NCBI RefSeq assembly: GCF_041765605.1
Contig: NZ_CP168900.1
Span: 1,876,001 to 1,940,000, forward strand
Length of the DNA: 64,000 bases
Direction of reading: 5' to 3'
Origin: Listeria monocytogenes
GTDB taxonomy: Bacteria > Bacillota > Bacilli > Lactobacillales > Listeriaceae
Position 1 is the first letter of the stretch. Each line of letters begins with the position of its first letter. A program made the position numbers and the translations under genes. The notes below the pieces were generated by a model. The model made no database searches. It saw only the letters and a list, made by a program, of their open reading frames with translations, and was not told where the DNA came from. Of this stretch, positions 58,455-61,120 are shown piece after piece.

Positions 58455-59825
58455 TTGCAACAAACAGTCACATATGGGGCAAAATGGAAACAATTTTTAA
58501 CGATATTCACACCGATTGTCATTACACAGCTTACACTTTTTTCTATGACATTTTTCGATACAACGATGAGCGGAAATTATTCGAATCAAGCGCTGGCTGG
58601 TGTAGCAATTGGTAGTTCGTTTTGGGCTCCGGTGAATGCCGCCTTTTCTGGGTTATTAATGGCTATCACGCCAATTATCGCTCAATTAATCGGGGCGAAG
58701 AAAGAAAAACAAGTCAAAAACACAGTGCATAACGGCCTATATATTGCTTTATTTTTAGCTTTTATTTTGATTCTTATTAATTTTTTGGTCGTTCCAACGA
58801 TTTTGACACACATGCCTGTCACAGCAGAAGTTGCGCATATCGCTCGTCATTTCTTGAACGGCATTTGTATCGGGATTCCCGCTTTCTTTATTTCTGCGAT
58901 TTTACGTTCTTTCATCGATTCACTTGGTCTAACTCGGGTGACGATGTTCACTACACTTTGTACCGTACCATTTAATATCTTTTTAAATTACTGTTTTATT
59001 TTTGGGAACTTCGGTTTTCCGGAAATGGGTGGTGCTGGTAGTGGTTACGCGACAGGGATTACGTATTGGCTCGTTGTTTTAGTGAGTGTGATTCTGATTC
59101 AAACACAAACGAGATTGCGCAAATTCGGTATTTTTAAAAGCCTTACAGCGCTTCGTTTTTCTAAAGTAAAAGAAATTATCGGGATTGGCGTTCCAAATGG
59201 TTTAACGATTTTATTTGAAACGAGTATTTTCTCAGCCGTGACGATTTTAATGGGCGCTTTTGGGACGGAGACGATTGCGGCGCATCAATCGGCAAATAGT
59301 GTTTGTACGTTGCTTTACGCCTTCCCGCTTAGTGTCGCTTCCACGCTAACCATCCTTGGCGGTTACGAAACCGGCGCGAAACGTTTAAAAGACGCCAAAC
59401 AATATCGCCATATTGGCATGACCGCTGCGATTTTAATTGGTTGTGTGAACGGAGCTATCCTTTTTTTCTTCCGCGATACAATTGCCGGATTTTACACGAA
59501 TGATTCCGCGCTTATTGATTTAATTATGCATTTCTTAGTTTACGCGATTCTGTTCCAATTCGCAGATGCTGTCTTGTCGCCAGTTCTTGGGGCACTTCGG
59601 GGTTACAAGGATGTTACGATTACCACCATTGTCGCCTTTATTTCTTATTGGTTAATTGGTCTACCAGTAGGTTACGGATTATCTTTCACGAATTTAGGAC
59701 CATTCGGTTACTGGATTGGTTTAAGTACCGGCCTATTTGTCGCCGCATTTATTTTGTCGCTTCGAGTTCGGAAAACAGAGCAAAAACTTTCCTTAAACGC
59801 AAAAAACGCAGAGATTTCAAGTTAA
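58455..59825 (+). CDS. MATE-family multidrug/organic cation exporter
   Basis: This is a 456-residue membrane protein with 12 predicted helices in two homologous halves, typical of MATE transporters (NorM branch). Seen are 'TQLTLFSMTFFDTTMSG' near the start and 'IGVPNGLTILFETSIFSAV' opening the second half. It exports drugs or cations in exchange for Na+ or H+; substrate unknown. TTG start with AAGGAG nine bases upstream. The stop codon lies inside the terminator hairpin at 59805-59840. The last 20 codons are part of a diverged direct repeat found again at 61023. Confidence 0.92.
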   Translation: MQQTVTYGAKWKQFLTIFTPIVITQLTLFSMTFFDTTMSGNYSNQALAGVAIGSSFWAPVNAAFSGLLMAITPIIAQLIGAKKEKQVKNTVHNGLYIALFLAFILILINFLVVPTILTHMPVTAEVAHIARHFLNGICIGIPAFFISAILRSFIDSLGLTRVTMFTTLCTVPFNIFLNYCFIFGNFGFPEMGGAGSGYATGITYWLVVLVSVILIQTQTRLRKFGIFKSLTALRFSKVKEIIGIGVPNGLTILFETSIFSAVTILMGAFGTETIAAHQSANSVCTLLYAFPLSVASTLTILGGYETGAKRLKDAKQYRHIGMTAAILIGCVNGAILFFFRDTIAGFYTNDSALIDLIMHFLVYAILFQFADAVLSPVLGALRGYKDVTITTIVAFISYWLIGLPVGYGLSFTNLGPFGYWIGLSTGLFVAAFILSLRVRKTEQKLSLNAKNAEISS

Positions 59826-59870
59826 TCTCTGCGTTTTTTTATTTCGCTAAACCAGCATGAATTTTATCTA
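59761..59870. repeat. Left copy of a diverged direct repeat flanking an accessory gene
   Basis: This stretch contains the last MATE codons, the terminator and a relic of the mntA 3' end. It matches 61023-61120 in the same orientation. The core 59801-59870 is about five-sixths identical by eye. The MATE-coding part matches (TTCGAGTTCGGAAAAC against TTCAAGTTTGGAAAAC) and then has a 12-18 base gap. Confidence 0.85.
59805..59840 (+). terminator. Terminator of the MATE gene
   Basis: AACGCAGAGATT/AATCTCTGCGTT stem (12 pairs, seven-base loop) and seven T residues. The MATE stop codon is in the loop region. Confidence 0.92.
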
Positions 59871-59874
59871 GTTT
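59839..59874 (-). pseudogene. Relic of the mntA 3' end (11 codons plus stop)
   Basis: Read on the minus strand, this encodes KLDKIHAGLAK and a TAA stop. The intact lipoprotein gene at 61089 ends in [11 protein letters not shown] and TAA. Similarity stops abruptly upstream of the relic. It is the trace of a former mntA end adjacent to the MATE gene, now cut off by the accessory segment. Confidence 0.85.
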
Positions 59875-59927
59875 GCTTTACTCGTATTTGTATGGTTTAT
59901 TATAGAATAAAGTCTATAGGCTAGTCT

Positions 59928-60752
59928 TTATTTTATTTGATAGTTTATTTTCCCATATACTTCTTCACTAAAAAAGTCTCTATGCGCCAAATCCACTGGT
60001 ATTTCGTCATCATCTAATCCATACGCTATTGCGCATTTTACCGTAGCACCTATTTCTATCTCTTCTGATAATCTTGAAGCTGAATCTAAAAACTGAGCAT
60101 CATCCAAAGTAGTTGATTTAAGTGTATTTAATAGATCAGACCTTGTATCTTGATAGATAGCAATATACTCCCCCCAGCTCCCCAGTGCCGAAGCAGATAA
60201 AGATGATTTATTTGTTACTTCAAACCAAAAAGCTATTATAGGTTTATCCCCAGACTCGTTGCCCTTTGCTCCAATTGGGATTATTTTATGACTCGTGATT
60301 TGGATTTTGATTTGTTCATTCTCTATCACACCATTTTCTAATGTTGGTGCTTCCTTTAATTTTTTCTTCTTGTGTTCCAGTATAGTTTCAGGGTTATATA
60401 AAGTCTGTAGAGTCTCCATATCCATTTGATTGGTATAAGAAGCCCTTATATTATTGGAATCAATTGGAGGCTTAATAGAAGATTTACTATTGAAACTAGC
60501 TCCATTTACAATTAATAAGCTTATAGCTATTACAGAAATAGTCGTTCCCGAAATGCCTGCATCTTTTGGATTCTTAAAAATTCCGATTATCGATAAAATT
60601 AATCCTACTGTTAAGACTATCCATCCTAACAAGGGAGTCCACCCCGTAAACATTTCAATAATTGCATAGGTTAATCCAGTTAACGCGAAGATAAATCCAG
60701 CTGAACCTAATATATTTTCTGTTGTCAAAACTTTGTATTTTCCGTCTTCCAT
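59928..60752 (-). CDS. Membrane protein with extracytoplasmic DUF5067-like domain (accessory)
   Basis: This is a 274-residue protein of unknown function. Residues about 10-95 hold three hydrophobic segments ('ILGSAGFIFALTGLTYAII', 'LLGWIVLTVGLILSIIGIF', 'TTISVIAISLLIVNGASF'). The remainder (about 100-274) is soluble with a beta-sandwich look ('IKIQITSHKIIP', 'IIAFWFEVTNKS', 'LSEEIEIGATVKCAIAYGL'), reminiscent of DUF5067/DUF4352-type domains. The ATG used has AAGGAG ten bases upstream; the frame extends 14 codons further without a site. It is AT-rich and lies between direct repeats, so it looks acquired or strain-variable. Confidence 0.75.
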   Translation of the reverse strand: MEDGKYKVLTTENILGSAGFIFALTGLTYAIIEMFTGWTPLLGWIVLTVGLILSIIGIFKNPKDAGISGTTISVIAISLLIVNGASFNSKSSIKPPIDSNNIRASYTNQMDMETLQTLYNPETILEHKKKKLKEAPTLENGVIENEQIKIQITSHKIIPIGAKGNESGDKPIIAFWFEVTNKSSLSASALGSWGEYIAIYQDTRSDLLNTLKSTTLDDAQFLDSASRLSEEIEIGATVKCAIAYGLDDDEIPVDLAHRDFFSEEVYGKINYQIK

Positions 60753-61022
60753 CTTATCTCTACTCCTTGTTGTTATTTTATGTTTAGCATCCAATTTCGT
60801 TAGGATAACATGAATGATCCTTCTAAAAAATTGGAATGTCAGAACTTAAGTCTAGGTTGTATTCACCAGAGTATTTTACTAAAAGTGGCAAGAAATCCCA
60901 CGGTTATCTAAATAAATCATATCATAATTATTATACATATCATGTAATTTAAATATTCTGACTAATAAACAACTACACACTTAAGAATAATAGGATGCAT
61001 ATACCCGCATTTGTTCTATCCC
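60753..61022. other. Gene-free AT-rich stretch upstream of the accessory gene
   Basis: About 270 bases contain no supported frame. The part from 60900 to 61000 is very AT-rich. A promoter for the accessory gene is expected here, but no convincing -35/-10 pair was found. Confidence 0.5.
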
Positions 61023-61120
61023 TTCAAGTTTGGAAAACGGTACACGCAAAAAAACGCAGAGATTTTGCGTTAATCTCTGCGCCTTTTTTTAGTTAGCTAA
61101 ACCATCATGAATTTTATCTA
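61023..61120. repeat. Right copy of the diverged direct repeat (MATE end, terminator, mntA end)
   Basis: It includes a degenerate copy of the MATE 3' coding end (LQVWKT against LRVRKT), a terminator hairpin and the true 3' end of the metal lipoprotein gene. It is in the same orientation as 59761-59870. Confidence 0.85.
61055..61090. terminator. Bidirectional terminator at the end of the metal ABC operon
   Basis: CGCAGAGATT/AATCTCTGCG stem with A-rich and T-rich flanks. On the minus strand it ends the lipoprotein gene; on the plus strand it duplicates the MATE terminator. Confidence 0.85.

Follow-up and report, generated by a model that had tools for sequence, protein, structure and literature searches.

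A one-gene islet with a duplicated target at the MATE/mntA junction of Listeria: possible remains of a phage-type element

How did a single gene come to lie between two direct repeats, each built from the ends of the same two neighboring genes, and what might it do there? The question is raised by a locus in a 64,000-nucleotide stretch of DNA (hereafter the window) from a 2.98-Mb genome of the genus Listeria (handle G000). The genes for a MATE-family efflux transporter and for MntA converge, and both repeats lie between them (Table 1). The original prediction explained the arrangement as a segment from a diverged lineage that had carried in its own version of the junction and had been added by homologous recombination at the terminator, and it expected the locus to be variable, with no gene expected between lmo1846 and lmo1847 in the EGD-e numbering. 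Our analysis shows a one-gene islet whose target is duplicated and which recombination has spread. The earlier interpretation left out the nature of the inserted gene (the cargo), whose family is often found beside prophage integrases, and this phage link is a useful new lead.

Table 1. Coordinates of the islet and its neighbors in the window
Feature	Position	Strand	Evidence
MATE-family efflux transporter gene, intact	58455..59825	+	PF01554 E 6.6e-64; ORF
Left repeat (MATE 3' codons, terminator, mntA 3' relic)	59743..59870	+	Local alignment; one copy in 12 empty-site genomes
Left bidirectional terminator hairpin	59801..59840		Fold -20.6/-20.7 kcal/mol, z -6.9/-6.5 (two strands)
mntA 3' relic, 11 codons plus stop	59839..59874	-	Read from sequence
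Inserted gene, 274 aa, C-terminal DUF5067 domain	59928..60752	-	PF16729 E 3.1e-19; phrog_5610 E 4.9e-12
Non-coding upstream part of insert	60753..61004		Matches to carriers
Right repeat (degraded MATE 3' end, terminator, mntA 3' end)	61005..61120	+	Local alignment
Right bidirectional terminator hairpin	61049..61088		Fold -16.8/-21.2 kcal/mol, z -4.0/-5.5 (two strands)
mntA, metal ABC transporter substrate-binding lipoprotein gene, intact	61089..62021	-	PF01297 E 4.3e-89

The Repeats and Their Terminators

The two direct repeats are real and have the predicted composition, with MATE 3' codons, a terminator and the mntA 3' end in each, but the copies start 18 nt earlier than had been proposed. 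As also predicted, the MATE gene is intact on the left, where mntA is reduced to an 11-codon relic, and mntA is intact on the right, where the MATE end is degraded. The identity of the copies, which the original prediction had asked to be computed, was 99 of 113 aligned bases (87.6%) in a global alignment with a further 21 gap columns. The local alignment score of the pair was 123, compared with a maximum of 35 in 2000 first-order Markov resamples, which rules out a chance origin. In a scan of the plus strand of the window at E ≤ 1e-6, the pair was the sole direct repeat pair of at least 50 nt within 8 kb once pairs touching an Ala-Asp array at 5570-7575 had been set aside. That array was the main signal in the window repeat scans; it is a very long Ala-Asp dipeptide array in a 976-residue putative LPXTG-type surface protein (motif recognized by eye) encoded at 5322-8252 on the minus strand.

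On either strand, both the left and the right terminator give good folds (z -4.0 to -6.9). Because both are still foldable, the cargo is probably insulated from MATE and from mntA, and these two from each other. The relic halves of the repeats have accumulated deletions: 11 nt of the left mntA relic are missing in the carriers G002 and G003, and the right MATE relic of the window has a 14-nt deletion relative to the G003 copy.

Filled and Empty Junctions among Listeria

The mntA gene was searched for in 25 Listeria genomes, and the junction was readable in the 15 where MATE adjoins mntA in the fetched stretch. In eight other genomes MATE was not detected within the fetched ~3.4-3.9 kb, and two (G021 and G023) have distant mntA relatives only. 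The empty, single-junction sites that a variable locus predicts were present at 12 of the 15 junctions; the insert occupied three, in the window genome, in G002 (L. cossartiae subsp. cayugensis, NZ_JAARZC010000002.1) and in G003. The insert thus has a repeat at each end and a one-copy empty site, as attL/attR pairs do. Since most junctions are single, the empty state is probably ancestral. The genome closest to the window by its flanks (G019, 95.7% and 96.6% identity) is empty, and seven more distant genomes (G024, G012, G005, G020, G011, G013, and G015) each have one junction and no second copy; the junction of G011 has an additional hairpin of its own.

The cargo genes of G002 and G003 are 92% and 68% identical, respectively, to that of the window. 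The non-coding DNA upstream of the gene (60795-61002) is 91-96% identical across the three carriers. Among 36 Listeriaceae genomes, long matches to 60753-61004 were confined to these carriers, and three other genomes gave matches of 22-43 nt.

Six database records, labeled as plasmids of L. monocytogenes or as Listeria phages, matched a 152-bp stretch holding one junction. The four that were opened, OR846816 and OR846863 (filed as phages) and NZ_CP030101 and NZ_LR134401 (plasmids), contain an ordinary MATE/mntA region with a single junction. As these pieces are 98.4-99.7% or 100% identical to the chromosome of G017 or G018, they are, from their sequences, probably mislabeled host chromosome.

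One Insertion, Followed by Decay and Exchange between Species

The right-hand MATE relic is unlike every live MATE end with which it was compared, and its boundaries are equal in all three carriers. Its identity to the live alleles is 72-80% across eleven close rows of the alignment, including the three carriers' own left copies, and 60-68% to three more distant genomes. The alignment has 94 columns; G011 was excluded because of its extra hairpin. Thirty-eight columns are invariant and 31 match both of the two groups of live alleles, A and B. The relic matches only the wider group B in nine columns and only group A in two. Eleven columns hold relic-only bases, and three more are relic-only in some carriers. 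Within the eleven, six have the same base in all carriers, in three the G003 relic alone has a base, and in two the relics differ from one another.

The shared insert, boundaries and relic changes make a single old insertion likely, followed, as the sequences suggest, by decay of the non-functional halves of the repeats. Independent gain in the three carriers was considered and ruled out by the common boundaries, the homologous insert and the shared relic bases (six of 11). Decay after insertion explains much of the divergence of the relic. The nine columns that match group B alone mean that another source lineage may also have contributed. Recombination did move the locus between lineages, as the original prediction had it, but the particular diverged lineage that it invoked did not emerge, the relic being about equally far from all eleven close rows.

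In the 1 kb at 61090-62090, identity to the window reaches 98.7% in G002, whose background is 89.6% (S.D. 3.3, maximum 97.4; 138 overlapping 1-kb windows), and 96.4% in G003, whose background is 89.5% (S.D. 3.2, maximum 96.9). Two non-carriers, G016 and G022, are 93.4% and 93.0% identical to the window in the same interval. Between the window and G002, mntA has a dS of 0.042, compared with 0.300 for MATE, 0.240 for mntB, and 0.417 for mntC; the corresponding figures for G003, whose recombination signal is weaker, are 0.172, 0.237, 0.122, and 0.692. Because mntA on the side of the insert is far more alike between carrier species than the background, the insert appears to have traveled together with mntA between Listeria species by homologous recombination, clearly so in the sequence comparison with G002. 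The 11-nt left-relic deletion is common to G002 and G003, and the 14-nt right-relic deletion is common to the window and G002. This conflicting pattern of sharing suggests that the inserts themselves have recombined with one another.

Over the 40 kb from window position 34092, identity among close Listeria species swings from ~80% to nearly 100%. This patchwork represents probable recombination tracts, such as that of G017 at 50592-52091.

The Cargo Is a Fast-evolving DUF5067 Protein

Read from the ATG at 60750-60752 (minus strand), which has AAGGAG upstream (by eye), the cargo gene encodes the 274 residues of the original prediction; the longest listed frame starts at a TTG at 60794 and has 288 residues. 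The predicted length is therefore that counted from the ATG, and the predicted membrane location rests on hydrophobic segments recognized by eye at the N terminus. The C-terminal domain matches DUF5067 (PF16729) with 69.6 bits, above the Pfam curated cut-off of 27 bits. The window and G003 proteins had no match in PADLOC-DB up to E 1, and a search with NCBIfam models found nothing. Among solved chains, 2LLG gave the best profile match (E 1.5e-5). DUF5067 appears in the literature in a Staphylococcus aureus protein for which no function is given (PMC5020093).

An order-level search found family matches in 54 of 395 genomes, the three carriers included, and 33 IMG/VR contigs hold a DUF5067 relative. 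The window protein is 26-34% identical to ten aligned members. By eye, all ten have a lipobox, which is absent from the window protein.

The cargo has a dN/dS of 0.70 in both the window/G002 and window/G003 comparisons, compared with 0.02-0.07 for MATE and mntA. Between the window and G003 the two halves of the coding region are 81-83% identical and the upstream non-coding flank is 91% identical. Judged from these comparisons the cargo evolves fast, and weak constraint can be an alternative meaning of its high dN/dS.

Relatives of the Cargo Often Stand beside Integrases

The surroundings of the family gene (~8-12 kb) were analyzed in 20 of the 54 matching genomes. Eleven of these 20 bacterial neighborhoods have a same-strand integrase gene that begins no more than 1.3 kb downstream of the DUF5067 gene, a fraction that may overstate the family-wide link because the neighborhoods were mostly those of the best-scoring matches. 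Ten of the integrases are tyrosine recombinases (PF00589) and one is a serine recombinase. A 312-codon frame separates the DUF5067 gene from the integrase at one locus (L100), and two short frames do so at another (L109). In the other nine neighborhoods, where one candidate frame each was scanned, no integrase was found beside the gene. Ten of the 20, two of which supplied the queries, have an HTH repressor-like gene and/or an ImmA-like gene upstream. The IMG/VR contigs, some of which look like near-copies of one another (L119/L120, L125/L126, and L145-L147), gave an integrase profile match downstream on the same strand in 19 of 33, with the integrase of L144 2.9 kb away, and none downstream in 14. 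In locus L097 of the Listeriaceae genome G028 the tyrosine integrase after the DUF5067 gene seems to be split over frames, and the layout of viral contig L117 matches that of L097.

In seven of the 11 neighborhoods the integrase faces the 3' end of a host gene head-on. The host genes are those for an ABC transporter, GuaA, LepA (twice), a patatin-like protein, tmRNA, and tRNA-Thr. Some family genes without an integrase likewise face housekeeping genes head-on, for example glnA, der, and a chaperonin gene. A second copy of the final codons of the ABC transporter gene lies 36 kb away in G071 (39 nt at 90%), and such a recurring host gene end is the ordinary mark of an integrated phage. A second copy of the host end was not found at E ≤ 0.01 in two other relatives. 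Scans for flanking repeats in seven other family members yielded nothing beyond weak pairs (e.g. 30 nt at 70% in L111), pairs internal to a gene and, in L112, two adjacent tandem copies. A further seven members gave one pair, of 34 nt at 71%.

Origin of the Islet

The frequent position of the cargo family beside prophage integrases suggests that the first step was of the integration type and that homologous recombination came second. We tentatively propose, at a little under an even chance, that the locus is what is left of a phage-type element that once integrated here and was then stripped down, that its repeats are a widened and decayed attachment pair, and that its gene encodes a candidate exclusion protein. 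A temperate phage or related integrative element would have recombined into the convergent MATE/mntA terminator junction, leaving a duplicated target of ~128 bp with one copy at each end. The integrase, the repressor and the rest would then have been lost, and the DUF5067 gene, which is the neighbor at the integrase end in relatives, would have been retained. The pattern seen today would follow from decay of the useless halves (the left mntA end and the right MATE end) with both terminators still foldable, and from later movement of the insert and the adjoining mntA between Listeria species, probably with the flanking genes serving as arms for homologous recombination.

As at prophage remnants bounded by attL and attR at host gene 3' ends, there are direct repeats of host gene ends, a one-copy empty site and a cargo gene that is head-on to a host gene. 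The window gene faces the 3' end of MATE with the repeat between them, just as the gene-integrase unit of its relatives faces host genes. The window locus differs from such remnants in that the recombinase is gone, the repeat is ~128 bp long, roughly three times the measured repeat of one relative (39 nt), and both flanking genes contribute to it. Profiles built from relatives found no HTH or ImmA remnant in the insert and no integrase match above the inclusion threshold. Exact junction patterns gave no attP in the viral contigs; among phages and plasmids none was found beyond the six records described above, the four opened being near-identical to chromosomal stretches.

The proposal has to be weighed against readings that need no integrase. 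A circular or duplicated DNA carrying the MATE/mntA junction and the gene could have entered the chromosome through one homologous crossover at the terminator, in the manner of Campbell, which is close to the history given in the original prediction. The insert is permuted as such an event predicts, beginning with the mntA end and finishing with the MATE end; a repeat of ~120 bp is more readily reconciled with homologous recombination than with a short att core; homologous recombination is in any case evident at the locus; and nine relic columns match group B alleles alone. Against this, a donor molecule was not found in the phage, plasmid and viral collections searched, and the relic is not clearly that of one other lineage. 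The crossover is a serious rival to integration, and we hold it to be possible but somewhat doubtful. A staggered break or template switching might instead have inserted the gene and duplicated the target locally; the copies would then have diverged by pure decay, and no mobile-element machinery would have taken part. Both copies do cover the same interval, like a long target-site duplication, and their differences fall mostly in the dead halves and the terminator loops, but the frequent place of the cargo family beside integrases and host gene ends would go unexplained, and we judge such an event unlikely.

The insert could also be ancestral in the group and have been lost from most species by recombination between the repeats, as its patchy distribution and the empty site of G019, the closest relative by flanks, would allow. 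This account was already weakened by the single junctions of the seven more distant genomes, and we consider it highly improbable. A phage-type element that has shrunk to the gene closest to its integrase end is the simplest joint account of the repeats and the cargo, and we favor it provisionally, holding it not quite as probable as its negation.

If only the plain part of this analysis is true, the locus is a small, well-resolved one-gene islet with a duplicated target. If the integration proposal is also true, a single phage gene can stay at a host terminator without disturbing its neighbors and then cross between species by way of the flanking core genes.

A Possible Role in Phage Exclusion

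The position of the gene and its rapid evolution lead us to propose phage exclusion as the role of the window protein. The precedent is the Streptococcus thermophilus phage TP-J34, whose lysogeny module has int as orf1 and ltp as orf2; in the related TP-778 a putative metalloproteinase is assigned to orf3, directly after ltp. Ltp, a lipoprotein of the cell surface, keeps DNA from being injected and so provides superinfection exclusion (PMC3952083). Relatives of the cargo hold the same slot adjoining the integrase in the lysogeny module, and the ten lipobox-containing DUF5067 relatives come from this ltp-like position. Ltp is also anchored in the envelope, as is predicted for the window protein. 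The window protein, likened here to Ltp by gene position, differs from it in having a DUF5067 domain and hydrophobic N-terminal segments without a lipobox, and the window gene stands alone, without a prophage. By this analogy the window protein is a candidate superinfection-exclusion protein, which would be held in the membrane, expose its DUF5067 domain on the outside and block the entry of DNA from other phages. In a literature search, the papers that name DUF5067 did not mention phage in their titles or in the portion of the abstracts covered, and among the 20 listed of 82 further matches no paper linked DUF5067 with superinfection exclusion. If the proposal is true, this uncharacterized domain gains a concrete and testable role in phage exclusion.

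A wider suggestion, which we think conceivable but rather unlikely, is that DUF5067 proteins constitute a large unrecognized surface-exclusion family of prophages of the Bacillota and others, occupying the Ltp slot, and that Listeria captured one as a stand-alone chromosomal gene, at a site insulated by terminators where species exchange and diversify its alleles.

The window protein shares the C-terminal match to PF16729 with the DUF5067 proteins found beside Bacillota integrases. They differ in that the ten aligned proteins have a lipobox by eye, whereas the window protein has a membrane N terminus like that of a protein from another Listeria genome (G008). There, at 5164-8133 of locus L098, an HTH gene, a gene in the ImmA position, a membrane protein gene and a large serine recombinase gene are found together, and from its gene content the locus is a lysogeny-type module with a related cargo. 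The N terminus of the G008 membrane protein resembles that of the window protein with 44% identity over 77 residues.
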